Assembly: GCA_030158285.1 (NCBI GenBank)
Contig: JAOATF010000173.1
Location: forward strand, 3,251-37,114
Direction: 5' to 3'
DNA from: Hyphomonadaceae bacterium
GTDB lineage: Bacteria; Pseudomonadota; Alphaproteobacteria; Caulobacterales; Hyphomonadaceae
Length of the DNA: 33,864 bases
The translations under genes and the position numbers were made by a program. Shown here in pieces: positions 10,569 to 33,404 of the stretch (its first letter is position 1; each line of letters opens with the position of its first letter). Under the pieces are notes generated by a model that saw only the letters and a program-made list of their open reading frames with translations, did not search any database and was not told the DNA's origin.

Positions 10569-10571
10569 ACG

Positions 10572-16334: not shown

Positions 16335-17690
16335 CTATTGAAGCGCGCCAAACACGCCGTGCGCCCTGCCCCACGCCATCACCATGTCTGGCCATGCGCG
16401 GCGCGGATCGTTGTCGAGGCCGCGCAGGCCAAAGCCGTGGCCGCCGGTTTCGAAGATGTGGAGCGACGCGGGGACGTTCGCGGATTTCAGGCCGGAGAAG
16501 AGAAGCAGTGAATTTTCCACCGGAACGCTGGCGTCGTCGGCGGCGTGCAGGAGGAAGGTTGGCGGCGCGTCTGCGGGCGGCGCGGTCTCAAGGGAATATT
16601 TTGCGACCTGTTCATCTGTCGGGGCCTCGCCCAGAAGATTGCGACGGGAGCCGGGGTGGGCTTGGCCCTGCTTCATCGTGACGACGGGATACATCAGGAC
16701 GGCGGCGTCTGGCCTTGCCGAGAGTTGATCGGTGGCGTCGCGGGGTTCGTACACGGTGGCGTTGAAGCGGGTGGCGAGGGAGCCGGCGACGTGGCCGCCG
16801 GCGGAGAAGCCCATCACCATAACGCGTTTGGGATCGATGCCGTCTGCGCTCGTGCGGGAGCGGATGAGGCGGATGGCGCGTTGGGCGTCCTGCAGGGGTG
16901 TGTCGGGGCCGGCGGCCCAGCCCTGATGCGGCAAGCGATGGCGCAGGACGTAGACGGTGGCGCCGTGTCGGCTGAACCAGCGGGCGCCTTCATAGCCTTC
17001 CTTGTCGATGACGACCCAGGAATAGCCGCCGCCGGGGATGATGAGGATGGCCGAGCCGTCCGGCTTCTGCGGGCGGAAGACGGAGAGCGTTGGGCGCGTG
17101 ACGTTGTGAGCGGCGCGGTCCAGCAGGTTGTAGGGGTTTTCGCGTTCGACGATCTTTTCTTCGAGCTTGATGCTCTCGCCGCCGGGCGGGCCGGCGGGCC
17201 AGAGGTCGATCACGGCGTCGGGTTCGCGGGTGGGATCGACCAGCAGAGGCGATGGCATGGGCTTCAGCGGATAGGAGATGATGAGATCGAGCGGTTCTGT
17301 GCCGAGTTGTCTGATGCCGACGATGGCGCGGTCATAGAGATAAGCGGCCATGCCGGGCTTGAGGATGCGGCGTTCGCCGTCAGAGACGACTTCGCCCTCG
17401 CCTGCCAGCACGTAGTAGACTTCGTCATGGTCGATCGGGTGTTCGCCGATGGCGCTGCCAGGGTGGAGGACGCGGCGGCGGAATTCCATGGTGCGACCGG
17501 GGGCGGCGTCGCTGATGCGGTAGGCGGTGCTCATGCCGATGGCGCCGTGGGGCGGCGGCTGGTCGATGGCGACGTCGGCTTCGTTGACGACGACCATGCG
17601 GCGGGCGGGCGGATCGATCGTGGCGATTGGCGTCTGCGGGCTGGCGCAGGCGGCCAGCAGCAGGGCGGCGGCGAGGACCGCGCGGATCAT
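16335..17690 (-). CDS. lipoprotein with N-terminal cupin and C-terminal alpha/beta-hydrolase (esterase)
   Basis: A 451-aa two-domain protein. The signal peptide ends in a lipobox (LAAC, Cys15), predicting a membrane-anchored periplasmic or surface lipoprotein. Residues 50-140 form a cupin barrel with metal-type residues His84, His88 and Glu90 (HPIDHDEVYYVLAGEGEV). Residues 200-451 form an acetyl-esterase-like hydrolase with oxyanion loop IPGGGYSW, nucleophile Ser296 in GFSAGG, likely acid Asp386 (HAADDASVP) and His418 (GGHGFGL). The triad is complete. Its start overlaps the dctM stop by 4 bp, so it belongs to the TRAP operon and probably removes acetyl (or other ester) groups from pectic material. 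Cupin plus esterase in one chain is unusual; the cupin might bind uronate or be catalytic. The substrate is inference. Confidence 0.87.
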   Translation of the reverse strand: MIRAVLAAALLLAACASPQTPIATIDPPARRMVVVNEADVAIDQPPPHGAIGMSTAYRISDAAPGRTMEFRRRVLHPGSAIGEHPIDHDEVYYVLAGEGEVVSDGERRILKPGMAAYLYDRAIVGIRQLGTEPLDLIISYPLKPMPSPLLVDPTREPDAVIDLWPAGPPGGESIKLEEKIVERENPYNLLDRAAHNVTRPTLSVFRPQKPDGSAILIIPGGGYSWVVIDKEGYEGARWFSRHGATVYVLRHRLPHQGWAAGPDTPLQDAQRAIRLIRSRTSADGIDPKRVMVMGFSAGGHVAGSLATRFNATVYEPRDATDQLSARPDAAVLMYPVVTMKQGQAHPGSRRNLLGEAPTDEQVAKYSLETAPPADAPPTFLLHAADDASVPVENSLLLFSGLKSANVPASLHIFETGGHGFGLRGLDNDPRRAWPDMVMAWGRAHGVFGALQ

Positions 17691-18976
17691 CCGCCACCTT
17701 TCATCAGGGCGGGCAGTGTCATAGAGAGCGCGGGGAAATAGGTGACGATGATGAGCGCCACGGTGAGCGCGCCGTAGAAGGGCCAGATCGTCTTCATCGC
17801 GGTTTCCATCTTCGTCTTGCCGATGGCGGAGGCGACGAAGAGGACGGAACCGACCGGGGGCGTCAGCAGGCCGATGCCCTGGTTGAGGATCATGATGATG
17901 CCGAAATGCACGGGATCAACGCCGATCTTCATCATGATCGGCAGGAGGATCGGCGTCATGATGATGATCAGCGGCGCCATGTCCATGAAGGTGCCGAGGA
18001 TCAGCAAGATGATGTTGACGATCATCAGGACCGCAATGGGGTCGCTGGAGATCGCGGTGATCATGTTGGCGAGCTGGGTGGGCGCTTCGAGGATGGCGAG
18101 GGCGTAGCTGAACGAGGTGGCGGCCCCGATGATCAGCAGCACCATGGCGGTGACGCGAACGGATTGCGCGGCGGCTTCCTTGAAGCGCGTCCAGCCCAGC
18201 GTGCGATAGACCAGCGCGCCGACGATGATGGTGTAGATCACGGCGATGGAAGAGGACTCGGTCGGCGTGAAGACGCCCGAGAGGATGCCGCCGACGATGA
18301 TGATCGCCGCGAGCAGGCCGGGAATGGCGGTGATGAGGGCGTGGAGGAAGGGGCGCCAGCCGGGGAAATCGTGGCGGGGATAGCCGCGTTTCACGGCCAC
18401 AAGCCACGCAACGACGCCGACAGAGATGGCGGTCACCACGCCGGGCACGATGCCGGCGAGGAAGAGGTCGCCGATGGGCACGCCGATACCGCTGGAGGCG
18501 GAATAGATGATCATGTTGTGCGAGGGCGGCAGCAGCAGGCCGACAATGGCGGCCGACGCCGTGACGTTCACGGCATAATCGGCGTGATAGCCCTTGTCCT
18601 TCATCAGCGGCATCAAGGTGGAGCCGATGGCGGAGGCGCTGGCGATGGCGGAGCCGGAGACGGAGCCGAACACGGTGGACGCGCCGACCGTGACAAGGCC
18701 GAGGCCGCCGCGGGCGCGACCGAAGGCCGCTTCCGCAATCTGGACGATGCGCTTGGCGATGCCGGCGCGGTACATCAGGTCGCCCGCGAAGACGAAGAAC
18801 GGGATCGCCATCAGCGAGAATGTGCTGACGCCGGCGGCCATGCGCTGGACGACGACGACCAGCGGGATGTCCATCACCAGGAAGCACAGGATCGACGAGC
18901 CGAGCAGCGCGAACGCGACGGGGACGCCGAGGATGAAGAGGATCGTCAGGCTGACGAGGAGGACGGTGATTTCCAT
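17687..18976 (-). CDS. dctM: TRAP transporter large permease subunit DctM
   Basis: A 429-aa polytopic protein of the DctM family, the ion-coupled translocation subunit of TRAP importers. It starts MEITVLLVSLTILFILGVPVAF and contains the family-typical FVFAGDLMYRAGIAKRIV, the GSVSGSAIASASAIGS loop, LLLPPSHNMIIYS, GVFTPTESSS and GIGLLTPPVGSVLFV. Length and number of hydrophobic stretches (about 12) are normal. Start at ATG 18976, overlapping the dctQ stop by one base (TAATG). With DctP and DctQ it should import an organic acid using a sodium or proton gradient. In this locus the likely cargo is galacturonate or short unsaturated oligogalacturonides, inferred from neighbours. Confidence 0.95.
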   Translation of the reverse strand: MEITVLLVSLTILFILGVPVAFALLGSSILCFLVMDIPLVVVVQRMAAGVSTFSLMAIPFFVFAGDLMYRAGIAKRIVQIAEAAFGRARGGLGLVTVGASTVFGSVSGSAIASASAIGSTLMPLMKDKGYHADYAVNVTASAAIVGLLLPPSHNMIIYSASSGIGVPIGDLFLAGIVPGVVTAISVGVVAWLVAVKRGYPRHDFPGWRPFLHALITAIPGLLAAIIIVGGILSGVFTPTESSSIAVIYTIIVGALVYRTLGWTRFKEAAAQSVRVTAMVLLIIGAATSFSYALAILEAPTQLANMITAISSDPIAVLMIVNIILLILGTFMDMAPLIIIMTPILLPIMMKIGVDPVHFGIIMILNQGIGLLTPPVGSVLFVASAIGKTKMETAMKTIWPFYGALTVALIIVTYFPALSMTLPALMKGGG

Positions 18977-19476
18977 TACTCGGCATCCACCGTCATGTCG
19001 GCGGCAGCGTCCGGGAAGAGGACGCGCTCGATTTCGAACAGGATGATCAGGCCGCCCGCGATGGGCAGCCCGAGATAGGCAAGGCCGCGCGACATGCCCA
19101 GCGAGGGAATGGTGTGGCTCCACGCGCGCATCACCAGCTCGCCGCCGAGGACGAGCATGACGAGGCCGCAGGCGGCAACGGCGAGGCTGGCGGAGCGTCG
19201 GATCCAGCGGCGGACGGTGGGCGAAGCCATCTCCTCGACCGCGACGATGCGGATGTGAAAGCCTTCGCGCACGCCCGCCGCAGCAGCGAGGAAGGCGAAC
19301 CAGATCATCAGGACTTGCGCGGCTTGTTCAGTCCAGGAGGGGCTGGAGCCGAGGACGTAGCGGCCGAGCACCTGCCAGCCGACGATCACCGTCATGGCGA
19401 CGAGGCCGGCGGCGGCGAGCCCGATGAGGGCGTTAGAAGCTGCGCGGGAGAGGCGCTGGATGGGATGCAGGCTCAT
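18976..19476 (-). CDS. dctQ: TRAP transporter small permease subunit DctQ
   Basis: A 166-aa membrane protein with four hydrophobic helices: ALIGLAAAGLVAMTVIVGWQ, VLMIWFAFLAAAAGVREG, LAVAACGLVMLVLGGELV and YLGLPIAGGLIILFEIERV. The segments WQVLGRYVLGSSPSWTEQAAQ and AAAAGVREGFHIRI are characteristic of DctQ. Start at ATG 19476, overlapping the dctP stop by 4 bp. It pairs with DctM as the small membrane subunit. The gene order P-Q-M with overlapping ends is the usual TRAP arrangement. Confidence 0.94.
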   Translation of the reverse strand: MSLHPIQRLSRAASNALIGLAAAGLVAMTVIVGWQVLGRYVLGSSPSWTEQAAQVLMIWFAFLAAAAGVREGFHIRIVAVEEMASPTVRRWIRRSASLAVAACGLVMLVLGGELVMRAWSHTIPSLGMSRGLAYLGLPIAGGLIILFEIERVLFPDAAADMTVDAE

Positions 19477-20453
19477 ACGGTCATGGCCTCGATCTCGGAG
19501 ACGATCCGCTTTTCGAACGGGGTGGTGACGAACTGGTCGTAGACCGGCTTCATCAGCTTCACGAAGGCGTCGCGGTCGGTGACTTCGTTCTCCTGCACGC
19601 CCGCAGCGAGCAGGCGCTGGCGCGATCCGTCCACACGCTCGTCCCACAGCTTGCGCATGAAGGGCACGCTTTCGGCGGCGCAGGCCATGACGATGTCGCG
19701 ATCGGCGCTGGAGAGCTTGTCCCAGCGCGCTTTCGACATCAGCAGCACTTCGGGCGTCATCACGTGGCGGGTGAGGCTGTAGTATTTCGCGGCTTCGAAA
19801 TGGCGGCCGGATTCATAAGAGGGCCAGTTGTTCTCTGCGCCGTCGATAACGCCCTGCACCAGCGAACCGTAGACCTCGCCGAGGTCCATCGGCGTGGCGT
19901 TGGCGCCGGTGGCGTTGATCATCGCCACGGACATGTCGGAGTTCGGCGTGCGGATCTTCATCCCCTTCATGTCGGCGGGCGTGAAGATCGGATTCTTTGT
20001 ATTATAGAAGCTGCGCTCGCCGGAGTCGTAGTAACAAAGTCCGATAAGGCCATGCGGCGCCAGTGTATCGAGGATGGCGCGGCCGGGGGCGCCATCGAGG
20101 GCGCGGCGCATGTGCTCTTTCGAATGGAAGAGGAAGGGCAGCGACGGAATGCTCGTCGCGGGCTCGATGGCGTTGAGCGGGGACAGGAAGACACGGTTCA
20201 GGTCCAACCCGCCGAACGTGGTGATCTCCAGCGTGTCGCGCTCGGCGCCGAGCTGTCCGCCGGCATAGATGCGTATGCCCAGGCGGCCCGATGTGCGCTC
20301 GGCGAGCAGGCGGCCCATTTCGGTGACGGCCTGCACGGTGGGGTAGTCCTGCGGGTGCGTGTCGCTGGAGAGGAGCATGCGCCCCTCGCCACGCCCGCAG
20401 GCCGACAGCGCAAGCGCCGACAGGCCCGAGACGGACACTGCGCGGCGCGTCAT
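19473..20453 (-). CDS. dctP: TRAP transporter solute-binding protein DctP, probable lipoprotein
   Basis: A 326-aa DctP-type periplasmic binding protein. The N-terminus MTRRAVSVSGLSALALSACG has a lipobox (LSAC) and a paired arginine, so it may be an anchored, possibly Tat-exported receptor. Family segments include SGRLGIRIYAGGQLG, FTPADMKGMKIRTPNS (containing the Arg that normally binds the substrate carboxylate), TPMDLGEVYGSLVQGVIDGAENN and YYSLTRHVMTPEVLLMS. Start is uncertain: ATG 20453 fits the signal peptide but has no ribosome-binding site; ATG 20513 lies upstream in frame, and a GGAGG lies 6 bp before an in-frame ATT (about 20486). A predicted LacI-type operator lies at 20580-20593. It heads the dctPQM-esterase operon. 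Confidence 0.93.
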   Translation of the reverse strand: MTRRAVSVSGLSALALSACGRGEGRMLLSSDTHPQDYPTVQAVTEMGRLLAERTSGRLGIRIYAGGQLGAERDTLEITTFGGLDLNRVFLSPLNAIEPATSIPSLPFLFHSKEHMRRALDGAPGRAILDTLAPHGLIGLCYYDSGERSFYNTKNPIFTPADMKGMKIRTPNSDMSVAMINATGANATPMDLGEVYGSLVQGVIDGAENNWPSYESGRHFEAAKYYSLTRHVMTPEVLLMSKARWDKLSSADRDIVMACAAESVPFMRKLWDERVDGSRQRLLAAGVQENEVTDRDAFVKLMKPVYDQFVTTPFEKRIVSEIEAMTV

Positions 20454-20579
20454 CGACACGCGGCTTGCGGGATAAATGTCCCTTGTAATGGCCGTCCTCC
20501 CTCGCGATCGCACGGGCGATCACCTGCCGGTTGGTCCTGTCTCCATTAGGAGGCTGGCCACCGGTCGTGTTCAATGTAT

Positions 20580-20864: not shown

Positions 20865-23762
20865 ATGGCTCAATCGAGCAACAAGAAAGCGTGGCTTCGC
20901 CTCGGGACCGGCGTGTCACTGTTCACGATGTCCTCCGCTCTTGGCCTCGCCGCACCGGCGCTGGCCCAGACGCAGCCGGCGCCGCCGGCAGCCGACACGG
21001 AGAGCGTCATCGTCGTCACCGGCTTCCGCGAAAGCCTTGCCGCCGCCATCGAGGTGAAGCGCGAGGAGAATGGCATTGTCGATGTCATCACCGCAGAAGA
21101 CATTGCCGACTTCCCCGACCTCAACCTCGCCGAATCCCTGCAGCGTGTGCCGGGCGTACAGATCGACCGGGATGGCGGCGAAGGCCGCACGATCAACGTG
21201 CGCGGCCTGTCGTCCGATTTCGTGCGCGTGCGTCTCAACGGTCTCGAAGCGCTGGCCACCACGGGCGGACGCGACGGACGCCAGAACCGCAACCGCGCCT
21301 TCGACTTCAACGTGTTCGCCTCCGAACTGTTCAACTCGATCAAGGTGTCGAAGTCGCAGTCGGCGGAAACCGAAGAGGGATCGCTGGGCGCCACGGTGGA
21401 CCTGACCACGGCGCGGCCGTTCGACTATGACGGCTTCACCTTCGCGGCCGGCGCGCAGGCCTCCTACAACGATCTCGCGGGCAATACCGATCCGCGTTAC
21501 ACCATGCTGGTTTCGGACCGCTTCCTCGATGGCCAACTCGGCGTGCTGTTCTCGCTGGCCTACTCCACGCGTAACACGGTGGAAGAAGGCTCCAGCTCGG
21601 GCCGCTTCCGCATTCCCAGCGTGGATGGCTGCGCGGCGACCCCGCCCATCAGCGGCACGGTCGCAGGCGCCAACCGCTGTTACCAGACCATTCAGGGCCC
21701 GATCACGACGCCATCGGGCGTTCTCACGGGCGCAGCCGCCGCGACGGCCGCGAACAGCGCCGCCCACCCGCGCATCCCGCGCTATGGCCGCATCAGCTAT
21801 GACCGCGAACGCCTGGGATCGACGCTCTCCGTGCAGTACCAGCCGTTCGAATCGACCACATTCGGCTATGACCTGCTCTATGCCGATCTGAAAGAGCAGC
21901 GCCAGGAAGAGTTCCTCGAGGCGATCAGCTTCGCGCGTGAGACCAACGCCTCCGGCCTGCGTTCGACAGATCTGCTCGCAGGCACGATCGATGCCTCCAA
22001 CACGCTGGTGGCCGGAACGTTCAACGATGTCGACGTTCGACTGGAACAGCGCCGGGATAACCTGGAAACCGAATTCTTCCAGAACGTCTTCCGTGTCGAT
22101 CATGACTTCTTCGACGGTCTGAAGGGCGAGTTCGTGGCGGGCCACACGCGCGCCGTACAGTACAACCCCAACCAGACGACGCTGTCGTTCGAGCGCTATG
22201 ACGTGGACGGGTATTCGTATGACTATTCGAACCCCAACCTGCCAGCCTTCAACTACGGCTTCGACGTCACCAATCCAAACAGCTACGTGTTCTCGTCTGC
22301 AGCGACGTCGGGCGATGCGTCGCTGATCCGGTTGCGGCCGAACAAGGCGGTGAACACTTTCCTGTCGTTCGACGGGCGCCTGATCTACGAGCTGGACGAT
22401 GTGTGGACGCTGAAGGGCGGCGCCTCTCGCAAGCAGTTCGAGTTCACAGGCACGGAATCGCGCCGCGCGACGGAGGCGCTGCCCGCCAGCGTGCTGACGG
22501 CGCTGGCCAGCGGCGGCTATGGCATCGCCGACTACTCCTCCCTGCTGACGGGCTTCGGCAAGAATCTCAACCTGCCGGCCGGAACGGCGACAAGCTGGGT
22601 TGTTCCCTCGATCAACAAGCTCAACAAGCTGATCGATTTCGAGTGTGACTGCGTCAACGCGTTCGGCGATTTCCGCACGGACGCCGTGAACAGCCTCGGC
22701 GAGAACCGCTCGGCCACCGAGACATCGACCGGGTTCTGGGCGCAGGCCGATTTCGACTTCGAACTTGGCGCGATGCCGGTGCGCGGCAACTTTGGCGTGC
22801 GCTATGTCGAGACTGACCTCAAAGCGACGGGCTATACCAACCAGGGCACAGGTTCGCTGCCGCTGACGGTCAGCAACAAGTACAATAACACGCTGCCGTC
22901 GGCGAACATCACGATCGAGCCGGTCAGCGACTTCCTGGTGCGCTTTGCGGCCGCCAAGACGATCGCGCGGCCGAGCCTGCCGGCGCTGACGCCGGGGGGC
23001 ACACTCGACGCCAACCCGCCGGGCTTCTCGATCAACGCGGGCAACCCGTTCCTCGCGCCGATCGAGTCGACCAATTATGACGTGTCGTTCGAATGGTATC
23101 CGTATGACGAGGCGCTGTTCGCCGTGGCCTTCTTCCAGAAGGACATCGGCACGTTCGTGCAGCGCCTGCGCCAGCTGATCCCGTACAGCCAGACCGGCTT
23201 CCCGGACTCACTGCTGCCGCCGGGCGTGGCCAACACCGAGCTGTTCGACACCAACACCTTCCTCAACACGCCGGGCGGAAATCTCGAGGGCTTCGAGGTG
23301 ACGGCGCAGACACCGTTCACCTTCCTGCCGGGACCGTTTGACAAGTTCGGTGGCCAGCTGAGCTACACCAAGATCGAGAGCGATGTGTCCTACGTGCTTG
23401 CCGCCACCATCGGCGCGGGCTTCGTGAATGCGCCGCTGACCGGCCAGTCGCCGGAGTCGACCAGCGCCACGCTGTACTATGATGACGGTCCGTTCCAGGC
23501 GCGCATCTCGGCAGTGTCGCGTGCCGCGTATCTGACGCTGGTGCCTGCCGCGAATGGCAATGATTTCGAGGGCAAGGCCGATGTGCTGAACGTCGACTTC
23601 TCGGCGTCTTACGAGATCAACGACAACTTCACCGTGTCGTTCGAGGCGATCAACCTCACCGACCAGTTCGACGAGCGCTGGATCTCCTCGGCGCGGCGCA
23701 ACAACCTGAACTACGAACACACCGGCCGCGAATTCGTGATCGGCGGGCGGTACAAGTTCTAG
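20865..23762 (+). CDS. TonB-dependent receptor, Caulobacter/Xanthomonas type (pectin locus)
   Basis: A 965-aa outer-membrane receptor. The signal peptide ends at APALAQ; the TonB box region reads DTESVIVVTGFRESLAAAIEVKR, typical of the large proteobacterial carbohydrate-type TonB receptors. The plug carries DIADFPDLNLAESLQRVPGVQ, the GRTINVRGLSSDFVRVRLNG segment and EEGSLGATVDLTTARPFDY. The barrel ends with HTGREFVIGGRYKF and a terminal aromatic. Start at ATG 20865 with GGGAG (20853-20857) 7 bp upstream. Two predicted operators precede it and a strong terminator follows, so it is monocistronic. Divergence from the TRAP operon and the shared operators suggest uptake of pectic oligosaccharides; the ligand is inferred, not seen. 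Confidence 0.95.
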   Translation: MAQSSNKKAWLRLGTGVSLFTMSSALGLAAPALAQTQPAPPAADTESVIVVTGFRESLAAAIEVKREENGIVDVITAEDIADFPDLNLAESLQRVPGVQIDRDGGEGRTINVRGLSSDFVRVRLNGLEALATTGGRDGRQNRNRAFDFNVFASELFNSIKVSKSQSAETEEGSLGATVDLTTARPFDYDGFTFAAGAQASYNDLAGNTDPRYTMLVSDRFLDGQLGVLFSLAYSTRNTVEEGSSSGRFRIPSVDGCAATPPISGTVAGANRCYQTIQGPITTPSGVLTGAAAATAANSAAHPRIPRYGRISYDRERLGSTLSVQYQPFESTTFGYDLLYADLKEQRQEEFLEAISFARETNASGLRSTDLLAGTIDASNTLVAGTFNDVDVRLEQRRDNLETEFFQNVFRVDHDFFDGLKGEFVAGHTRAVQYNPNQTTLSFERYDVDGYSYDYSNPNLPAFNYGFDVTNPNSYVFSSAATSGDASLIRLRPNKAVNTFLSFDGRLIYELDDVWTLKGGASRKQFEFTGTESRRATEALPASVLTALASGGYGIADYSSLLTGFGKNLNLPAGTATSWVVPSINKLNKLIDFECDCVNAFGDFRTDAVNSLGENRSATETSTGFWAQADFDFELGAMPVRGNFGVRYVETDLKATGYTNQGTGSLPLTVSNKYNNTLPSANITIEPVSDFLVRFAAAKTIARPSLPALTPGGTLDANPPGFSINAGNPFLAPIESTNYDVSFEWYPYDEALFAVAFFQKDIGTFVQRLRQLIPYSQTGFPDSLLPPGVANTELFDTNTFLNTPGGNLEGFEVTAQTPFTFLPGPFDKFGGQLSYTKIESDVSYVLAATIGAGFVNAPLTGQSPESTSATLYYDDGPFQARISAVSRAAYLTLVPAANGNDFEGKADVLNVDFSASYEINDNFTVSFEAINLTDQFDERWISSARRNNLNYEHTGREFVIGGRYKF

Positions 23763-24044: not shown

Positions 24045-24851
24045 TTATTGGGCTGCTACGGCCTTGCAGGTGATCTCGCCGCAACCCGCGAACGTGATGC
24101 GCGCGGTCTGGCCGGCGAGGATGTCGTGGACGCCGGTGATGGCGCCGCTGGAGACGAGCTGGCCCCTGGCGAGGGGACGGCCGCGCTGGGCGAGATGCGA
24201 CAGCAGGAAACGGAGTCCGGCGATGGGGCCACCCGGGAGAATGCTGGCGAAGCCTGTGCCGACGGCGGCGCCGTCGATCAGGGTGGTGACTTCGATGTCG
24301 GCGAGGCGTTCGCGCCACTCCGGAATCTCTGCGCCGAGGATGACGCCGTAATTGTTGCCGAAGTCGGAGCTGACGACGGTGGCGCCGAGATCGTTGATCG
24401 CGGCCATGGGCGAGCCTGCGGTTTCAACACCGATGTGCAGGGCGGCGACAAGGGCGATAGCTTCCGCGTCAGTCCACTCGGTCTTACCGGCGGGCGCGTC
24501 GACGCCCATGCGGAAGACGAACTCGCCTTCGACCGCGGCAAAGCCACCGGTGAAGACGGGGAACACGATCTCCTGCCCGGCTGTCGCCAAGCGAACGTCG
24601 CGCGTGAAGATGGGGCCGGAGAGACGCTCGGCGCCGAGGCGGGCGCGCATTGGCAGCGGATTGACCATGCCGATCTTCCAGCCGGCGATCGTATCCTCCC
24701 AGCGGGCAATGCCGGCTTCCTGGATGCGGTAGGCTTCATCAAGCGAGGCGGGCATCGGACCGGGGAAGCCATCGAGCGCGCGACGCGACAGGCGGGCGCC
24801 GACCAGCGCCCCCGCAATCTCGTCAGCTGTTGCGACCCTCGCGCTGTCCAT
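24045..24851 (-). CDS. 2-keto-4-pentenoate hydratase-like enzyme (FAH superfamily)
   Basis: A 268-aa protein matching the MhpD/2-oxopent-4-enoate hydratase group in length and pattern. It has an N-terminal helical lid (DEIAGALVGARLSRRALDGF, then SLDEAYRIQEAGIARW) and GWKIGMVNP. The metal-site segment GFAAVEGEFVFRMG supplies the E-x-E pair, with further acidic positions after VALVAALHIGVETA, and GGPIAGLRFLLSHLAQRGRPL near the end is typical. These enzymes hydrate or cleave 2-keto acids with Mg2+ or Mn2+ in the cytoplasm. Start at ATG 24851 where similarity begins. It is divergent from the pectate lyases and shares operator site 4. Its reaction on pectin-derived keto acids is unknown; it may serve a lactone/2-keto-3-deoxy acid side route. 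Confidence 0.86.
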   Translation of the reverse strand: MDSARVATADEIAGALVGARLSRRALDGFPGPMPASLDEAYRIQEAGIARWEDTIAGWKIGMVNPLPMRARLGAERLSGPIFTRDVRLATAGQEIVFPVFTGGFAAVEGEFVFRMGVDAPAGKTEWTDAEAIALVAALHIGVETAGSPMAAINDLGATVVSSDFGNNYGVILGAEIPEWRERLADIEVTTLIDGAAVGTGFASILPGGPIAGLRFLLSHLAQRGRPLARGQLVSSGAITGVHDILAGQTARITFAGCGEITCKAVAAQ

Positions 24852-24985: not shown

Positions 24986-26371
24986 ATGATGAAGCTGCGC
25001 CATACCAAGATCGCCGTGCTGGCCGCGCTTGCCCTTTCGGCATGTGTGGGAACCGGCGCGCTGGGACAGGTCGGGGCTGGCGGCGGGCAGCCGACGCTGG
25101 TTGCGGGCGATCCCGTCTCGCAGTGGTTTCCGGCGCCGATGGGATGGGCGGCGGGAACGAAGGGCGGCGCGGGCGGGCAGATCATCCGCGTGACCAATCT
25201 CGACGCGAAGGGGCCGGGATCTCTGCGCGCGGCGCTGGACACCAAGGGCCCGCGCATCGTGGTGTTCGAGGTGGGCGGCGTGATCGATCTTGGCGCGACG
25301 ACGCTGAAGATCGAGGAGCCGTATCTCACGATCGCGGGACAGACGGCGCCATCGCCCGGCATCACGCTGATCCGGGGCGGGATCGATATTCCGGCGCATG
25401 ACGTGATCGTGCAGCATATCCGCGTGCGGCCGGGAGCGGCGGGCGGGACATGGCGCAAGGGGCCGGACTTCGATTCCATCTCCACCGTCGGCGCGTACAA
25501 TGTGGTGATCGATCACTGCTCGCTGACATGGGGGACGGACGAGAACCTTTCCGCCTCGGGCCCGCGCTTCACCGGATCAACACCGGACGCGTGGCGCAAG
25601 GGCGCGAGCCATCAGGTGACCTTCTCCAACAACATCATCGCCGAGAGCCTGGCGCATGCGAGCCACCCGAAGGGCGAGCACTCGAAGGGGTCGCTGATCC
25701 ACGACAATGCGGCGGACATCCTGATCATCGGGAATCTCTACGCGCACAATTACGAGCGCAATCCCTTGTTCAAGGGTGGGGTGCGCGGGACCGTGGTGAA
25801 CAACCTGATCTACAATCCGGGGCAGCGCGCCCTGCACTACAACCTGATGGCCAATGAGTGGGGCGCGACGGCGCCGGTGAACGGGCATCTGACGGCTGTC
25901 GGCAATGTGCTGCGCGGGGGACAGGATACGGCGCAGGGGATGCGCTTCCTCACCATCGGCGGACAGGGCGATCTGGACTACTTCGGGCGCGACAACCTGA
26001 TGGTGGATCGCTGGGGATCGGCGCTGGAGGAGTTGGGCTCTTACGGACAGACAGGCGCGAAGATCGTGAAACACGGCGCGCCGCTCGACTGGCCTGTGGG
26101 GCTGGTGGCGTTACCCGCGCTGCAGGTGGAGACGCATGTGCTCACACATGCGGGCGCGCGGCCGTGGGATCGCGATGCGGATGATGTGCGCATTCTGGCG
26201 GATACGGCGGAAGGGCGTGGCGAGATCATCGACAGCGAGGAGGAGACCGGCGGCTATCCGAAGCATGCGATGACGAAGCGCGCGTTTGATCCGGCGCAGT
26301 GGGATCTGGCGACGATGCGGCCGAAGGATGCGAGCGTGCTGGATAGCGGCGCGAAAGCGCGCGGGACGTGA
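24986..26371 (+). CDS. pectate lyase-type lipoprotein (PL1-like), paralogue 1
   Basis: A 461-aa secreted lyase with a lipobox (LSAC, Cys20), so probably anchored to a membrane. The parallel beta-helix shows the PL1-like series GGQIIRVTNLDAKGPGSLRAAL, GPRIVVFEVGGVIDLG, LTIAGQTAPSPGITLIRGG, then VVIDHCSLTWGTDENLSASG, which holds the acidic residues used for Ca2+ binding, and HSKGSLIHDN. It would cleave polygalacturonate by beta-elimination, giving 4,5-unsaturated products that feed KduI. Start is ATG 24986 or the adjacent ATG 24989. It overlaps the second lyase by 4 bp (GTGA). The two proteins align along most of their length, so they arose by tandem duplication, but only this one has a lipobox. 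Exact PL subfamily not assigned. Confidence 0.88.
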   Translation: MMKLRHTKIAVLAALALSACVGTGALGQVGAGGGQPTLVAGDPVSQWFPAPMGWAAGTKGGAGGQIIRVTNLDAKGPGSLRAALDTKGPRIVVFEVGGVIDLGATTLKIEEPYLTIAGQTAPSPGITLIRGGIDIPAHDVIVQHIRVRPGAAGGTWRKGPDFDSISTVGAYNVVIDHCSLTWGTDENLSASGPRFTGSTPDAWRKGASHQVTFSNNIIAESLAHASHPKGEHSKGSLIHDNAADILIIGNLYAHNYERNPLFKGGVRGTVVNNLIYNPGQRALHYNLMANEWGATAPVNGHLTAVGNVLRGGQDTAQGMRFLTIGGQGDLDYFGRDNLMVDRWGSALEELGSYGQTGAKIVKHGAPLDWPVGLVALPALQVETHVLTHAGARPWDRDADDVRILADTAEGRGEIIDSEEETGGYPKHAMTKRAFDPAQWDLATMRPKDASVLDSGAKARGT

Positions 26372-27612
26372 ACCGGCGGCTTTTCCTGCTGGCATCGGCG
26401 GCGATGGCGGCAACGCCGGCATGGGCCGTGCCAATGCCGGGAACGATTACAGGTGGATATGGCGGGCGCATCATCCGCGTGACGACGCTGACACCGGATG
26501 GACCAGGATCGATCAGCGAAGCGGTGAAGGCCAAGGGGCCGCGCATTATCGTGTTCGAAGTGGGCGGCGTGATCGACCTCGGACGCGAGACGCTGGAGAT
26601 CAAGTCTGGCGACGTCACGATCGCGGGGCAGACGGCGCCCTCGCTGGTGACGTTCATCAGGGGCGGGATCGCGATCCGCGCGGAGAATGTTGTCATCCAG
26701 AATATCGCGGTGCGGCCAGGCGAGGCTGGACAGGCGAAGGCAAGCGGCTGGGAGTGCGATGGCATCTATGCCTACGGCGCGGCGCGGGTGGAGGTGTCCA
26801 ACTGCTCGATCACCTGGGCGACGGATGAAGGACTGTCCGCTTCGGGCAAGAGGTTCGAAGGCGCCAACGTCGATGAATGGCGGGCGAACACGTCTCACAC
26901 CATCATGTTCCGCAACAACATCGTGGCGGAGGGGCTTTCAAATTCGACGCACTCGAAGGGCGAGCATTCCAAGGGCACGCTGATCCACGACAATGTGCGC
27001 GATGCGGCGATCATGGACTCGCTCTATGCGCACAACCGCGAACGGAACGTGCTGTTCAAGGGCGGAACGCAGGGACTGATGGCTGGGAACGTCGTCTACA
27101 ATCCGGGCAAGCGGTTTGCGCACTACAACCTGCATGCGAACGAATGGGAAGGACATCCGTTCGAGGCGGGCAAGGTGCGCGTGGAACGGAATGCGTTTCT
27201 CGCGGGGCCGTCGACCGATGCCAAAGCTGCGGCGTTCATGATGGGCGGCGATGGTCCGCTGACGCTGGAGATCGAGAACAATCTGGCGTTGCGCGCGGAT
27301 GGATCAGTGCTGGCAATGACAGGGCGGTTCGGCGACGGAGATCCAGTGCTGGACATGCGAACGAACGCGGCGTTCGACGATGCGGCTGCGGTGCGCGCGA
27401 ACATGGCGCGCGTGCTGGAGGCGTGCGGCGCGTGGGCGTGGGCGCGTGATCCCGTGGACGCGCGGATCGTGGCCGATGTGAAGGCGGGGACGGGGCGAAT
27501 CATCGATTCCGAGAGCGAGGTCGGCGGGTATCCGGTGAGGCCGGAAACGCGCACGGCGTTTGTGGAGAACGAGTGGCATCTGGCGAGCATGGTGCGGCGG
27601 ACTGCGCCCTGA
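26368..27612 (+). CDS. pectate lyase-type secreted enzyme (PL1-like), paralogue 2
   Basis: A 414-aa tandem paralogue of the preceding lyase, starting at GTG 26368 inside the upstream stop codon. The signal peptide MNRRLFLLASAAMAATPAWA ends in AWA and has a twin-arginine-like RRLFLLA, so Tat export is possible; there is no lipobox cysteine, predicting a soluble periplasmic or exported form. Core motifs are conserved: GPRIIVFEVGGVIDLG, VTIAGQTAPS, VEVSNCSITWATDEGLSASG, HSKGEHSKGTLIHDN and AHYNLHANEWEG. Compared with paralogue 1, the His of the DHC motif is Asn (SNC), which may change activity or specificity. It is followed immediately by repeat element B. Confidence 0.87.
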   Translation: MNRRLFLLASAAMAATPAWAVPMPGTITGGYGGRIIRVTTLTPDGPGSISEAVKAKGPRIIVFEVGGVIDLGRETLEIKSGDVTIAGQTAPSLVTFIRGGIAIRAENVVIQNIAVRPGEAGQAKASGWECDGIYAYGAARVEVSNCSITWATDEGLSASGKRFEGANVDEWRANTSHTIMFRNNIVAEGLSNSTHSKGEHSKGTLIHDNVRDAAIMDSLYAHNRERNVLFKGGTQGLMAGNVVYNPGKRFAHYNLHANEWEGHPFEAGKVRVERNAFLAGPSTDAKAAAFMMGGDGPLTLEIENNLALRADGSVLAMTGRFGDGDPVLDMRTNAAFDDAAAVRANMARVLEACGAWAWARDPVDARIVADVKAGTGRIIDSESEVGGYPVRPETRTAFVENEWHLASMVRRTAP

Positions 27613-27819: not shown

Positions 27820-29451
27820 CTACAACGCGCGATAGGTCGTGGAGCGGATCAGCGCGCTGCCCTGCCCGGTGCAGTAGAGCGCGGGGCGCAGGCTCAGGAA
27901 GTCCCAGGCGGTGTTGTGGTTGTAGCCGCTGGTTTCGAAGCGGACGCCGTATTGGGTCCAGCGTTGGCCGGGCGTGCGCGTCCAGCAGGTGACGATGTGG
28001 CGGTCGTTCTGGAGTTTGATCTGCAGGCGTTTGCCGAAATCGGCGGGTGGGGCGTTGCGGCGTTGCGTGGCGACGCGGTGCATGACGAGGCCGGAGTTGG
28101 AGAAGCCGAGGCCGCAATAGAGTTTGGGGGAGTAGAACAGCAGCACGCCGGCTTCGGCGCCTTCGTTGAGTTCGATGTCGGCTTCGATTTCGTAGGCGAG
28201 GTCGCCGTTGATGAAGGTGAGCGGGCGGCTGTCGGTTGGCGATGAGCCCGAGGCGCGGAGCGTGAGGCCGCCGGTGTTGCGCGTGATGCGCGCGGCATCC
28301 GTTGGGCCGGGCGCATGGAAGGCCCACAGGAGGCCGGTGCGATCGGTGGTGAAATCGTCGGAGAGGGCCATGCCGTGTTCGGCGTTGGCGATGTTGACGG
28401 GCTTACGAATTGGCTTCGAGAGATCACCGCCTTCGGCGCGGAACCAACCATCCTGCGTCCACGACACGGGATCGAGCAGGCATTGGCGGCCGAGGGTCCA
28501 GAAGCCGTTTTCGTAGCCGTGATAGACCATCCACCAGCCGCCGTTGGGACCTTCGAACACGGTGGCGTGGCCGCGTGACCACCATTTTTCGCGCGACGAC
28601 CAGGTGCGCACGATGGGATTTTCCGGATCGTGCTGCCACGGGCCATGGATCGAGCGCGAGCGTGCGACGATGACCATGTGACCCGTTGGAGGACCGGCTG
28701 TGCCGCCGACGGCGGTGATGAGATAGAACCACTCTCCCCTGCGCAGGATTTTGGGGCCTTCGGGTGCGAAGCCTTCGACGACCCATTCCTCGGGATAGCG
28801 CCAGGGGTCGTAGACGTGCTCGACGCCTCCCACGGTGGAGAGGCCATCGTCGCTGAGACGGATGCGATCACCACCGGAGAGGAACAGCCAGCGCGAGCCA
28901 TCTTCGCCGACAGCGTGGCCGGGGTCGATGTGGCGCGGCAGGTTGAGATCGACAGGCTCTGACCACGGGCCTTCGGGATGCTCGGCGTGGATCACGTAGA
29001 TCGAGCGTTTCTCCGGGAAGCGCGCGGGGATGTAGAGGAAGTAGCGACCGTTGTGCTTTGAGAGTTCCGGCGCCCAGACGGAGCCGATGTTCGTCGTCAG
29101 CGCGGCGGTGAGCGGCGTCCAGTTCACCAGGTCCCGGCTCTGCCAGATGACGAGGCCGGGATAGGATTCGAAACTGGAGAAGGTCATCAGCCAGCGATCG
29201 CCGTCGCGGAGGATGGTGGGATCGGGGTGATCGCCCGAGAGGATCGGGTTGAGGAATGTGCCATCGCCATTGTCGGCGCGGCGCTGGTTTTCGATACCGC
29301 GTTTCCATTTGAGATGCGCCCAGTCGAGTCCGGCGGGCGAAATCTCGTCTTCGCGGCGGAGGGCTGGCGGCACGGCAAGCGTGGAACAACCGGCGCTGAG
29401 CGCGGCGCCGGACAGCGTGGAGAGGACAAGTCGCCGGGTCATCCGCGCCAT
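27820..29451 (-). CDS. GH43-like five-bladed beta-propeller glycosidase, lipoprotein
   Basis: A 543-aa lipoprotein (lipobox LSAGC, Cys22) with a GH43-type propeller at about residues 65-370. The putative catalytic residues are Asp77 in SGDHPDPTIL (base), Asp177 in HIDPGH (pKa modulator) and Glu231 in PEGPKI (acid). WAPELSKHNGRYFLYI and HATVFEGPNGGWWMVYHGYE support the fold. A C-terminal beta-sandwich of about 170 residues follows (DDFTTDRTGLLWAFHAPG onwards), as in GH43 enzymes with an accessory domain. It likely removes arabinose, xylose or galactose from pectic side chains; the sugar is not determinable. Start at ATG 29451 because GGAGG lies 7 bp upstream; TTG 29457 and ATG 29442 are alternatives. 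Divergent from the LacI gene, sharing operator site 5. Confidence 0.86.
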   Translation of the reverse strand: MARMTRRLVLSTLSGAALSAGCSTLAVPPALRREDEISPAGLDWAHLKWKRGIENQRRADNGDGTFLNPILSGDHPDPTILRDGDRWLMTFSSFESYPGLVIWQSRDLVNWTPLTAALTTNIGSVWAPELSKHNGRYFLYIPARFPEKRSIYVIHAEHPEGPWSEPVDLNLPRHIDPGHAVGEDGSRWLFLSGGDRIRLSDDGLSTVGGVEHVYDPWRYPEEWVVEGFAPEGPKILRRGEWFYLITAVGGTAGPPTGHMVIVARSRSIHGPWQHDPENPIVRTWSSREKWWSRGHATVFEGPNGGWWMVYHGYENGFWTLGRQCLLDPVSWTQDGWFRAEGGDLSKPIRKPVNIANAEHGMALSDDFTTDRTGLLWAFHAPGPTDAARITRNTGGLTLRASGSSPTDSRPLTFINGDLAYEIEADIELNEGAEAGVLLFYSPKLYCGLGFSNSGLVMHRVATQRRNAPPADFGKRLQIKLQNDRHIVTCWTRTPGQRWTQYGVRFETSGYNHNTAWDFLSLRPALYCTGQGSALIRSTTYRAL

Positions 29452-29491
29452 GGCCAATCCTCCGGTTGCCAGCGCACAGGTTTTCCCTTAT

Positions 29492-29505
29492 TGCTACCGG
29501 TGTCA
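29492..29505 (+). promoter_or_regulatory. predicted LacI-type operator, site 5
   Basis: TGCTACCGGTGTCA retains the ACCGGTGTCA half of the consensus, with a weaker left half. It lies between the divergent GH43-like gene and the LacI-family gene, so it would give autoregulation plus control of the glycosidase. Confidence 0.62.
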
Positions 29506-29596
29506 ACGCCTAAGCGGAAAATCTCGCAAGGCTGCGGCAAGCGAATGCGCCTTGTCCTGCTTGACGGCCTTGCGGCCGCGCGCGCAAGCAGGAGAC

Positions 29597-30685
29597 ATGA
29601 AGAAGACAATGAAGCCCGGACCAGCGACAAAACCCACGACATCCGCACCGCTGGAGCCGAAGCGACGGCCGACGATCAACGATGTGGCGCGTCTCGCCAA
29701 TGTCTCGAAGAAAACGGTGTCGCGCGTCATCAACCAGAGCCCGTTCGTCAACAAGGACACACGCGAGCGCATCGACGCGGTGATCAAGGAGCTGGGCTAT
29801 GCGCCCGACCCCGTGGCGCGCGGGCTGGCCTCGCGGCGCAGCTATCTGATCGGGCTGATCTACGACAACCCAAACCCGCAGCACGTGATCGACACGCAGC
29901 AGGGCATTCTCGACATCATCCGTGGGTCGGGGCTGGAGCTGGTGGTGCATCCGTGCAACCGGCGCGACAAGGATTTCCTCGCGGGCGTGCGCGGCTTCAT
30001 CGACCGGCAGAAACTGGCGGGCGTGATCCTGCCGTCGTCGGTATCGGAAGACGAGGAGCTGGTGGCGCTGCTGCGCGAGGCGGATACGCCTTATGTGCGC
30101 ATTGCCTCCGTGCTGCTGGACAGCGAAGAGAATTCTATCGTCACGCATGATCGCGAAGGCGCGCGGCAGGCGGCCGAGCATCTGGCGGGGCTTGGCCACA
30201 AAGTGATTGCGCACGTGTCGGGGCCGGACACGTTCCGCTCCTCGCACGAGCGGCGCGCGGGATTTGTCGAAGGCCTGAAATCGGCGGGGCTGGCGCTGGA
30301 CAAGAAGCTGGACCTGCGCGGCGGCTACACGTTCCAGTCAGGCATCGAGGCGGGGCGGCGGCTGATGGCGACGGTGTCGCGGCCGACGGCAGTGTTCTGC
30401 GGCAATGACGAGATGGCGGCCGGCGTCTGTCAGGCGATCCGCGAGACGGGGCTGGATATCGGCAAGGATGTGTCAGTTGTCGGGTTCGACGACAGCCCGC
30501 TGGCCTCGCGCATGTGGCCGGCGCTGACGACTGTGCTGTTGCCGATCCGCGCCTCGGGGCGAATGGCGTCGGTGCGGCTACTGGGCGACCGGCTGACGAA
30601 AGAGCCGCTTGAGGAAGACGACCAGGGCGAGGTGCATCCGCGCCTCGTGGTGCGCGCGTCCAGCGGACCAGCGCCGAAGGGCTGA
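29597..30685 (+). CDS. LacI-family transcriptional regulator of the pectin locus
   Basis: A 362-aa LacI/GalR-type regulator. A 25-residue Lys/Pro/Thr-rich leader precedes the helix-turn-helix and hinge helix: PTINDVARLANVSKKTVSRV, INQSPFVNKDTRERI, then ELGYAPDPVARGLASRRS. The periplasmic-binding-protein-like effector domain follows, with IGLIYDNPNP, GVILPSSVSEDEE, LAGLGHKVIAHVSGP, AVFCGNDEMAAGV and VSVVGFDDSPLASRMWP. The most likely ligand is KDG or another uronate-pathway intermediate, by genomic context. Start is uncertain: ATG 29597 has AGGAG only 2 bp away, ATG 29609 has it at 14 bp. Six predicted operators with a central CG, the usual LacI-type symmetry, lie in this locus, including one upstream of its own gene. 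A hairpin follows its stop. Confidence 0.94.
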   Translation: MKKTMKPGPATKPTTSAPLEPKRRPTINDVARLANVSKKTVSRVINQSPFVNKDTRERIDAVIKELGYAPDPVARGLASRRSYLIGLIYDNPNPQHVIDTQQGILDIIRGSGLELVVHPCNRRDKDFLAGVRGFIDRQKLAGVILPSSVSEDEELVALLREADTPYVRIASVLLDSEENSIVTHDREGARQAAEHLAGLGHKVIAHVSGPDTFRSSHERRAGFVEGLKSAGLALDKKLDLRGGYTFQSGIEAGRRLMATVSRPTAVFCGNDEMAAGVCQAIRETGLDIGKDVSVVGFDDSPLASRMWPALTTVLLPIRASGRMASVRLLGDRLTKEPLEEDDQGEVHPRLVVRASSGPAPKG

Positions 30686-30801: not shown

Positions 30802-31650
30802 ATGTTCGAGAAGACCTATCACGCCACCCATCCCGACATGATGGACGGGGCGAGCAATGATGACCTGCGTGCGCGCTATCTGATCTCGGGGCTGTTTCAG
30901 CCGGACAAGGTGACGCTCAACTACTGTCACAACGAGCGGATGGTTGTGGGCGGCGCGGCGCCCGTGACGCAGGCGATCGAGCTGCCCGCGCAAACCGAGC
31001 CGGCTTCGGCGAAAGGAAAGCCTTTCCTCGAGCGGCGCGAGATCGGCGCGATCAATATCGGCAACGGGCCGGGCGTGATCGATGTGGATGGCGTGGCGCA
31101 TGACCTCGCGCAGCGCGACGGGCTCTACATTCCGATGGGCTCGGAAAAAGTGGTGTTCAAGTCCAAGGACGCCGCGAAGCCTGCGCGCTTCTATCTGGTC
31201 TCGACACCGGCGCATGCGCGTTATGAGGTGGCCAAGATTTCGATCGAGACGGCAGTGCCGCTGGAACGCGGCGCGCCGGAGACATCGAACGAGCGGACGA
31301 TCTATCAGTTCGTGGTGCCGGCGAAGGTGAAGTCGTGCCAGCTGCTGCTGGGCATGACGATCCTTAAACAGGGCAGTGTGTGGAACACCATGCCGCCGCA
31401 CCTGCACGATCGCCGCTCGGAAGTGTATCTCTATTTCGGGCTGGGGCCGAACGATCGCGTGTTCCATTTCATGGGCGAGCCGGACGACAGCCGCTCCATC
31501 GTGATGGCCAACGAGGAAGCCGTGATGTCTCCGCCGTGGTCGATCCACATGGGCGCGGGGACGGCGGCGTATACGTTCATCTGGGCGATGGGCGGGGAGA
31601 ATCTCGACTATACCGACATGAACCAGCTCGACATCTGCCAGTTGAAATAG
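30802..31650 (+). CDS. kduI: 5-dehydro-4-deoxy-D-glucuronate isomerase
   Basis: A 282-aa KduI. It isomerises 5-keto-4-deoxyuronate, produced from unsaturated galacturonate, to 2,5-diketo-3-deoxygluconate in the cytoplasm. The bicupin zinc ligands His200, His202, Glu207 and His249 are present in [15 protein letters not shown] and [11 protein letters not shown]. Their spacing (2, 5, 42) equals that of the E. coli enzyme. Family segments include [38 protein letters not shown] and [15 protein letters not shown]. Start at ATG 30802 with GGGAGGG 5 bp upstream. First gene of the kduI-kduD-kdgK operon, preceded by operator site 6. Confidence 0.97.
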
Positions 31651-31653
31651 GCC

Positions 31654-32412
31654 ATGACCTCTCCCTTCTCGCTCGCAGGCAAGGTCGCCATCGTCACTGG
31701 CGCCAACACCGGCATTGGCCAGGCGATTGCCGTGTCGCTCGCCGAGGCGGGCGCGGACATAGCGGCGGTGGGGCGGACGGCGCCGACCGAGACGGAGGGG
31801 CTGGTGAAGGCGACGGGGCGGAGGTTTGTTTCTGTCTCGGCTGACCTGTCGTCGACCGAACCGGTGGCGCGGGTGATCGCCGAGAGTGTGGGCGCGCTGG
31901 GGCGGGCGGACATTCTCGTCAACAATGCGGGGATCATTCGCCGCGCGGATGCCGTTGAGTTTTCGGAAGACGACTGGGACGCGGTGATCGACACCAACCT
32001 CAAGAGCGTCTTCTTTCTCTCGCAGGCATTTGCGAAGCACTGCTTCACGAACGCGCAGGCAGGCAAGATCGTGCAGATCGCCTCCCTGCTCTCCTTCCAG
32101 GGCGGGATACGCGTGCCGAGCTATGCGGCGGCGAAGAGCGGGCTCGCGGGCATCACCAAGGCGCTGGCGAATGAGTGGGCGGCAAAAGGCGTGAACGTCA
32201 ACGCCATCGCGCCGGGCTATATCGAGACCAACAACACCGAGGCGTTGCGCGCGGATGCGAACCGCAGCCGCGATATCCTCGCGCGCATTCCGGCGGGACG
32301 CTGGGGCGAGGCGCGCGACATTGGCGGGGCGGCTGTCTTTCTGGCGTCGGCTGCCGCAAACTATGTGCACGGGGCGATCCTGCCCGTGGACGGAGGCTGG
32401 CTCGCGCGATGA
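31654..32412 (+). CDS. kduD: 2-dehydro-3-deoxy-D-gluconate 5-dehydrogenase (SDR)
   Basis: A 252-aa classical short-chain dehydrogenase that reduces 2,5-diketo-3-deoxygluconate to 2-keto-3-deoxygluconate with NAD(P)H. It has the nucleotide motif TGANTGIG (15-22), NNAG (90-93), catalytic Ser144 in IASLLSFQGG, and Tyr157/Lys161 in YAAAKSG. LLSFQGG-x-x-VPSYAAAKSG and NAIAPGYIETNNTEALRAD are typical of KduD within the SDR family. The start is 4 bp after the kduI stop and the gene end overlaps kdgK by 4 bp, so the three are translated as a unit. Confidence 0.95.
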   Translation: MTSPFSLAGKVAIVTGANTGIGQAIAVSLAEAGADIAAVGRTAPTETEGLVKATGRRFVSVSADLSSTEPVARVIAESVGALGRADILVNNAGIIRRADAVEFSEDDWDAVIDTNLKSVFFLSQAFAKHCFTNAQAGKIVQIASLLSFQGGIRVPSYAAAKSGLAGITKALANEWAAKGVNVNAIAPGYIETNNTEALRADANRSRDILARIPAGRWGEARDIGGAAVFLASAAANYVHGAILPVDGGWLAR

Positions 32413-33404
32413 GCGGCAAGCTCGTTTGTTTTGGCGAGATGCTGGTGCGGCTGTCGGCGCCGCAGGGCGAGATGCTGTTGCAGACGCCGCGCCTCGCCGC
32501 GCATGTCGGCGGGGCGGAGGCGAATGTCGCGGTGTGCGTCTCGCGGTTGGGCGGACGCGCGGCGATGTCGACGGTGCTGCCGGACAATCCGCTGGGCCAT
32601 GCGGCGCGCGACGAGTTGCGGCGGCATGGCGTTGATGTTTCGGCCGTGCGGTTCGTGGCCGGACGGATGGGGCTTTATTTCCTGACACCGGGCGCTGTGC
32701 TGCGGCCGAGCGAGATCGTGTACGACCGCGCGGGATCTGCGTTTGCGGACAAGGCGGATGCGGCGGACTGCATCGCGCAGCTGGATAGCGCGGCGATGCT
32801 GCACGTATCGGGCATCACGCCGGCGGTGAGCGCGAAAGCGGGAGAAGCGGCGTTGACGGCCGTGGCGGCGGCGAATGCGGCGAGCGTGCCCGTGTCGTTC
32901 GACGGGAATTACCGCAGCAAGTTGTGGGAGGCGCGTGGCGAGACGGGCGCGCCGGTGCTGCGAAAACTGCTGGAGGGCGCAAGCCTCGCCTTCATCGACG
33001 AGCGCGACATTGCGCTGGTGCTGGGCGAGACGTTTGCGGATCGCAGCGCGGCATGCGCGACGGCGTTCAAGGCGTTCCCGAAATTGCAGCGCATCGCGGC
33101 GACAACGCGGACGACGCATGCGGTGGATGCCTTCTCGCTGGGCGCGACGCTGCACCGGCGCGATGGCGTGGCGAATGCCAAGCCGCTGGAGCTGGGCAAT
33201 GTGGTGGACCGCATCGGTGGCGGCGACGCCTTCGCGGGCGGCCTTCTGCATGGGGTGATGCAGGGCTGGGCCGACGAAGATGCACTGGACTTCGCGCTGC
33301 ATACGTCAGCGGCGAAGCACGGCCAGGTGGGCGATGCGAGCCATGCCAGCGAGGCGCAGATCAGGGCGTTGATGGGCTCTGGCGGGAAGGACGTGCGGCG
33401 GTAA
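32409..33404 (+). CDS. kdgK: 2-dehydro-3-deoxygluconokinase (PfkB family)
   Basis: A 331-aa sugar kinase that phosphorylates 2-keto-3-deoxygluconate to KDPG, entering the Entner-Doudoroff pathway. It begins SGKLVCFGEMLVRLS, followed by HVGGAEANVAVCVSRLGG (the N-terminal PfkB signature region) and FDGNYRSKLW, and has the C-terminal signature DRIGGGDAFAGG with the catalytic Asp. Length is normal. The ATG overlaps the kduD stop (ATGA). KDPG aldolase is not in the window, so it must be encoded elsewhere or beyond the edge. Confidence 0.94.
   Translation: MSGKLVCFGEMLVRLSAPQGEMLLQTPRLAAHVGGAEANVAVCVSRLGGRAAMSTVLPDNPLGHAARDELRRHGVDVSAVRFVAGRMGLYFLTPGAVLRPSEIVYDRAGSAFADKADAADCIAQLDSAAMLHVSGITPAVSAKAGEAALTAVAAANAASVPVSFDGNYRSKLWEARGETGAPVLRKLLEGASLAFIDERDIALVLGETFADRSAACATAFKAFPKLQRIAATTRTTHAVDAFSLGATLHRRDGVANAKPLELGNVVDRIGGGDAFAGGLLHGVMQGWADEDALDFALHTSAAKHGQVGDASHASEAQIRALMGSGGKDVRR

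Follow-up and report, generated by a model that had tools for sequence, protein, structure and literature searches.

A predicted cupin-esterase lipoprotein encoded with a TRAP transporter in an alphaproteobacterial pectin locus

Pectin is often acetylated, and to our knowledge little is known of how bacteria couple its deacetylation to uptake outside the cytoplasm. The original PaeX, a pectin acetylesterase of the alpha/beta hydrolase kind, is said to act on oligogalacturonides in the periplasm. Among the cupins, KdgF belongs to the pectin and alginate pathways, according to PMC11381880 and PMC12838403. The former gives His50, His52, Glu56, and His90 as the metal ligands of BeKdgF and proposes Asp102, Phe104, and Arg108 as its catalytic residues. 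Concerning uptake, the TRAP solute-binding proteins 4N8Y and 4X8R are reported with galacturonate and glucuronate, and the same source warns that most such ligands were co-purified (PMC11668362).

Here we analysed a stretch of 33,864 nucleotides from a Hyphomonadaceae bacterium, hereafter the window, in which these themes meet in a single gene. We consider it fairly probable that this gene encodes a lipid-anchored protein of two parts, a PaeX-like pectin esterase and a pectin-associated cupin devoid of a metal site, which acts ahead of import by a TRAP transporter.

The fusion protein and its locus

The gene is a single open reading frame of 451 residues on the minus strand (Table 1). An earlier note on this DNA had read it as one chain combining a cupin with a hydrolase, and this is what we find. 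Cupin_2 matches residues 74-137 with 33.0 bits for a cut-off of 27.2, while BD-FAE, Abhydrolase_3, and Peptidase_S9 match within residues 204-421, each above its cut-off (Pfam). AlphaFold2 folds both domains well, with a mean pLDDT of 91.0 and a pTM of 0.72 for the full chain and a mean pLDDT of 90.7 for the cupin alone; the models are weak at residues 6-26 and in the linker, 145-147. The N-terminus, MIRAVLAAALLLAACASPQ, is a short hydrophobic stretch followed by the lipobox LAAC with Cys15, and among the 11 fused ORFs (a script count that includes duplicates and the window) 8 have a lipobox by regular expression. This motif suggests that the protein is lipid-anchored, as had been proposed. 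The start codon of the fusion gene and the stop codon of dctM (TGA) share an ATGA, and the purine-rich AAAGGTGG lies just upstream; this agrees with the suggested translational coupling to DctM.

Table 1. Features of the window, with positions counted from its first nucleotide
Feature	Position	Strand	Evidence
Cupin-esterase fusion, predicted lipoprotein, 451 aa	16335..17690	-	ORF and translation, domains, model
Predicted signal peptide with lipobox LAAC, residues 1-15, ending at Cys15	17646..17690	-	sequence
Cupin domain (residues 32-141) without the canonical metal site (Ile86, Val124)	17268..17597	-	Pfam PF07883, model, family comparison
PaeX-like alpha/beta hydrolase, residues 156-447, Ser296-Asp386-His418	16350..17225	-	NF041902, alignment invariants, fold matches
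DctM, TRAP large permease; stop overlaps fusion start as ATGA	17687..19123	-	PF06808, TIGR00786
DctQ, TRAP small permease (ORF; real start may be later)	18976..19647	-	PF04290
DctP, TRAP solute-binding protein, nearest solved relative 4N8Y	19473..20513	-	PF03480
TonB-dependent receptor, divergent from TRAP operon	20865..23762	+	TIGR01782, 624.7 bits
PelZ-like pectate lyase 1	24986..26371	+	NF041900, 409 bits (cut-off 840)
PelZ-like pectate lyase 2	26368..27612	+	NF041900, 295 bits (cut-off 840)
GH43 family protein	27820..29457	-	PF04616
LacI-family regulator; domain from residue 142, gene start likely later than ORF start	29249..30685	+	PF00356, PF13377
KduI	30802..31650	+	NF002091, 398 bits (cut-off 250)
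KduD-like SDR	31654..32412	+	PF13561; 69% identical stretch in annotated kduD of L127
KdgK-like PfkB kinase	32409..33404	+	PF00294

The curated model that best fits the hydrolase is PaeX (NF041902 of NCBIfam), with 320.5 bits over residues 156-442, about 149 bits ahead of AxeA1 (171.6 bits). As this score remains below the equivalog cut-off of 550, the substrate could differ from that of PaeX. Five relatives score 159-328 bits on the same model. The complete Ser-Asp-His hydrolase described earlier is borne out by the alignment: Ser296, within GFSAGG, Asp386, and His418 are invariant in 102 of 102 distinct homologues, and so is Pro219-Gly220-Gly221 of the oxyanion loop. The fold alone leaves the substrate undecided, since the best structural matches are 6a6o, an acetyl ester-xyloside hydrolase, and 7dwc, the Bacteroides enzyme BTAxe1. 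Both the match to PaeX and the gene neighbourhood speak for pectin.

DctP, DctQ, and DctM are encoded together on the same strand, upstream of the fusion gene. Among solved structures, DctP is nearest to 4N8Y (E 5e-97), with 4X8R at E 2e-85, and the transporter is likely of the uronate type. The proximity to 4N8Y and the ATGA overlap fit the earlier picture of a membrane-anchored, pectin-type acetylesterase tied to such a transporter. The pectin setting itself, also part of that picture, is well supported by the gene content of the window, where the operon of DctPQM and the fusion is accompanied by two PelZ-like lyases, KduI, a KduD-like protein, a PfkB kinase, a LacI regulator, and a GH43 protein. 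Relatives of the TonB-dependent receptor recur in other cupin loci.

Other parts of the window deserve mention in their own right. A gene resembling 2-oxopent-4-enoate hydratases (HpaH/DmpE, weak scores) lies at 24045-25043 on the minus strand. A gene of the D-arabinono-1,4-lactone oxidase family, followed by one resembling D-serine dehydratase/alanine racemase, adjoins the pectin region at 9294-11705. Finally, a long stretch at 33-3961 contains tandem repeats of 24 and 48 bases with several frames open, and looks like the gene of a repeat protein with a period of 8 residues.

Loss of the metal site in the cupin

Metal-dependent cupins carry the motif HxH(x)3-4E and a histidine in motif 2. The earlier note had seen apparent metal ligands in the window cupin, a view that the comparison with its relatives contradicts. 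Motif 1 reads H84-P-I86-D-H88-D-E90, with Ile in place of the second His of HxH, and in motif 2 the His is replaced by Val124. In the alignment, which is gap-free between the two motifs, all 60 distinct alphaproteobacterial cupin cores carry Val at position 124, where all 30 cores from a xanthomonad-like family (see below) carry His. Position 86 is Ile or Leu in the same 60 cores; the xanthomonad-like ones have His (18), Asn (8), or Gln (4). We thus rejected a metal-dependent cupin for the alphaproteobacterial lineage, as two of the four canonical ligands are lost in all 60 distinct cores.

Because these ligands are lost, the function of the cupin must rest on other conserved residues. Arg58, Asp61, Arg66, and Glu69 are each fixed in the 60 alphaproteobacterial cores and occur 0, 4, 0, and 2 times, respectively, in the 30 xanthomonad-like ones. 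Eight residues are fixed in both groups (His48, Arg71, Arg73, His84, Asp89, Glu90, Tyr92, and Gln128); the cupin of Gemmatirosa has Val, not Gln, at position 128. Judging from strand alternation, the conserved residues would face the interior. The possibility, raised earlier, of a cupin lacking both metal and ligand binding is therefore half right: the metal site is gone, but conserved charged residues remain. Moreover, in 56 of the 56 loci with both parts (duplicates included) the cupin is closer to that of the window than the esterase is, with mean identities of 71.4% and 57.4%. Such conservation makes a tight ligand site or catalysis likely, rather than a loose appendage. The lineage-wide replacement of a metal site by charged residues can be probed directly by mutation.

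The same substitutions bear on KdgF. By register, His50, His52, Glu56, and His90 of BeKdgF fall on H84, I86, E90, and V124, so that two of the four are kept, and the identification of the cupin as KdgF was rejected on the two that are lost. For Asp102, Phe104, and Arg108 the comparison, made on ungapped register only, gives Leu136, Ile138, and Leu142. KdgF is one of the closer structural matches (5fpx, Z 14.1, 102 aligned, rmsd 2.2), not above other cupins, 1o4t being the best of the matches named (Z 16.4, 111 aligned, rmsd 2.0). The genome of the window, 90% complete, has 10 Cupin_2 matches, one of which is the fusion protein. No KdgF was recognised among the other nine, three of which were searched against solved structures, without a KdgF chain, and six judged by eye.

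Distribution of the cupin and its fusions

The fused architecture exists in other genomes and is rare. A search of the family gave a match at 1e-30 in 29 of the 105 genomes, and a scan of genome contigs gave the best 80 of 107 loci. A search with a 44-row cupin alignment found the cupin in 16 of the 105, seven of which have it joined to the esterase (G000, G091, G092, G095, G099, G102, and G050). Seven others encode it as a gene of its own, flanked by dctM and the esterase gene (G033, G045, G052, G057, G059, G064, and G085). The two parts are on different contigs in G098, and in G088 the cupin follows dctM with no esterase match nearby. A script count that includes duplicates and the window gave 11 fused among 58 cupin ORFs, and these 11 reduce to seven distinct fusions. 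At 7 of 105 genomes, the idea of a widespread fused gene was abandoned. The concern that the architecture might be widespread, with another substrate already attributed to it, is likewise not borne out: besides its rarity, no paper describing a cupin-esterase fusion was found, judged by titles and abstract openings, nor one combining cupin, pectin, acetylesterase, and TRAP transporter, or cupin, esterase, fusion, pectin, and periplasmic.

In the esterase tree, six fused rows fall together and the seventh (G050) falls with an unfused relative, which requires at least two changes. The fused rows form one group in 0 of 200 bootstrap trees, and a single origin of the fusion was discarded on these two grounds. 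There may also have been one fusion, then loss.

The association with pectin genes was assessed within the family, since the class draw, with PelZ in 8 of 240 genomes, could not inform on co-occurrence. Among the 105 family genomes, 15 have both the cupin and a PelZ-like lyase, 16 the lyase only, 73 neither, and one the cupin only (G099, 73% complete), giving a Fisher p of 7e-9 when the relatedness of genomes is ignored. Hence, 15 of the 16 genomes with the cupin carry the lyase, an association with pectin genes that the earlier note had suggested looking for. Within the family, the cupin is nearly confined to PelZ carriers and is not required by them; it is not essential, because 16 of the 31 family genomes with PelZ lack it.

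Further away, the cupin was found in 10 of 398 genomes drawn evenly from the phylum and in 1 of 240 drawn from the class. Both counts include the genome of the window and are possibly lower bounds, these draws having scored part of the candidates per genome (e.g., 11 of 38 and 19 of 38 in G000). In the nine other loci of the phylum draw, a KduD-type gene lies within about 10 kb of the cupin in eight, the ninth (L159) having none, and the cupin is fused to an SGNH esterase in three. Overall, the cupin follows pectin loci in Caulobacterales, Sphingomonadales, the xanthomonad-like family, and one plasmid of Gemmatimonadota. In Sphingopyxis loci it is unfused, with a PelZ-like lyase on one side and the esterase on the other, and it adjoins the lyase in several Novosphingobium loci (e.g., L017, L021, and L127, the latter being pNL2 of Novosphingobium aromaticivorans); in two others (L029 and L032) a lyase was not seen next to it. 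For the cupins at L159:9773-10102 and L167:9906-10241, pectin genes were sought within about 10 kb and none was found; several of the scanned ORFs had no match at all and are maybe in the wrong frame.

Some individual loci may be recorded here. In pASTEX01 of Asticcacaulis excentricus (L126:15001-15351), a metal-less cupin follows kdgD (5-dehydro-4-deoxyglucarate dehydratase) and is not beside a lyase or an esterase. The 1-Mb plasmid 2 of Gemmatirosa kalamazoonensis (L125:11998-12339) encodes an exported-looking cupin with a complete HxH-E-H site, near a likely GH28 gene and one resembling GH97 (both labelled by eye). The cupin of L167 is near a YhdP-like gene.

A second kind of fusion occurs in the family of genome G135, which we take to be Xanthomonadaceae-like from gene content. 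The cupin is present in 52 of its 149 genomes, and among 31 of these 52 loci that were examined it is C-terminal on an SGNH esterase in 23 and alone in 8, often beside kduD or kduI. The SGNH part scores 72.7 and 84.0 bits on PaeY, far below the cut-off of 1000 (NCBIfam), and a structure search matched it to YxiM (2o14) and to the fungal rhamnogalacturonan acetylesterase 1deo, whose family is presumably CE12. The HxH-E-H site is retained in most SGNH-fused cupins, as in that of Gemmatirosa. Of the 23 fused cupins, 19 have His and 4 have Gln at position 86, and the 8 stand-alone ones all have Asn there (duplicates included). The three loci of this family covered at 20 kb (L162-L164) also carry a PaeX-like esterase, DctP, and DctM, and the esterase of L162 scores 327.5 bits on the PaeX model. 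In the same three loci, the HpaH/DmpE-like gene recurs directly before dctP (L162:2147-2905, L163:1881-2657, and L164:774-1538).

By these domain assignments, the cupin family is fused to two unrelated folds of acetylesterases, at opposite ends, which is the strongest evidence that it belongs with deacetylation. It appears to be an exported family of its own, pectin-associated and uncharacterised. Together with the spread across pectin loci, the two fusions suggest an uncharacterised step or binding protein in the extracytoplasmic breakdown of pectin.

Possible roles of the cupin and comparison with described systems

In the explanation that we favour, the fusion protein would be lipid-anchored and would most likely face the periplasm. 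Neighbouring lyases would make galacturonides, from which the C-terminal PaeX-like serine esterase would take off the acetyl groups. The conserved residues of the cupin (two Arg, two His, acidic residues, Gln, and Tyr) most likely form a pocket for the same uronate, which the cupin would either process, for instance by ring-opening or isomerising its unsaturated end, or hand on. The TRAP transporter of the same operon would then import it. As for the cupin itself, we lean tentatively towards a second catalytic activity; binding or handing on a ligand is possible and ranks after it, and some other role seems unlikely. A more specific proposal, on the doubtful side, is that the cupin represents an unrecognised extracytoplasmic family of pectin enzymes that acts, ahead of import, on the galacturonide freed by deacetylation. 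This family would once have been metal-dependent, have become metal-free in alphaproteobacteria by trading His86 and His124 for Arg58-Asp61-Arg66-Glu69, and have been fused repeatedly to unrelated acetylesterases.

The alternative that survives best, possible without being probable, makes the cupin a non-catalytic uronate-binding module, akin to a carbohydrate-binding module, holding acetylated galacturonides close to both esterase and transporter. It would account for the loss of the metal ligands, for Arg71 and Arg73, invariant in both groups and suited to a carboxylate, and for the separate fusions to two kinds of esterase. However, binding modules are rarely free-standing, and this cupin is often alone with a signal-like N-terminus (only the 11 of 58 ORFs above are fused, duplicates included), besides being more conserved than the esterase.

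It is quite unlikely that the cupin acts as an extracytoplasmic counterpart of KdgF, opening the ring of 4,5-unsaturated galacturonate for import of the keto form by the TRAP transporter. The presence of 5fpx among the closer folds, the KduI, KduD-like, and kinase genes downstream, and the lack of a recognised KdgF elsewhere in the genome (three Cupin_2 proteins searched by structure, the rest by eye) speak for it, but they have to be set against the replacement of two of the four metal ligands by Ile86 and Val124, the Leu136/Ile138/Leu142 found by ungapped register at the Asp-Phe-Arg of BeKdgF, and a fold match not above that of other cupins. The lack of KdgF also comes from an incomplete genome (90%), and, according to PMC12838403, the enzyme is missing from many strains because ring opening is also non-enzymatic. 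Least probable of all is an esterase for another acetylated plant glycan, such as xylan or arabinan side chains, with a cupin that only stabilises or dimerises: AxeA1, 6a6o, and BTAxe1 are relatives and the window has a GH43 gene, but PaeX is the best curated model by some 149 bits, the locus has pectate-lyase-like genes and KduI, and so many charged residues would not be expected to persist in a scaffold.

The protein that we favour, an esterase and a metal-free cupin acting together ahead of import, shares features with several described systems. The window DctP resembles in sequence the solute-binding proteins of TRAP uronate transporters (4N8Y and 4X8R), its own ligand being a prediction. 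The cupin is, like KdgF (YeKdgF, HaKdgF, and BeKdgF), a small single-domain fold in a uronate setting, and shares the positions of His84 and Glu90; it differs from BeKdgF, for which PMC11381880 lists no signal peptide, by its signal-like N-terminus. The SGNH fusions of the PaeY/CE12 type combine, as in the window, the same cupin family with a pectin-type acetylesterase, but their esterase has an unrelated fold, their cupin is at the opposite end, and it has kept the His of motif 2. Finally, the fusion protein is, like PaeX (NF041902), an alpha/beta hydrolase with a Ser-Asp-His triad in a pectin locus; it differs by its score (320.5 against 550), by its place in a TRAP operon, and by the addition of a lipobox and a cupin.
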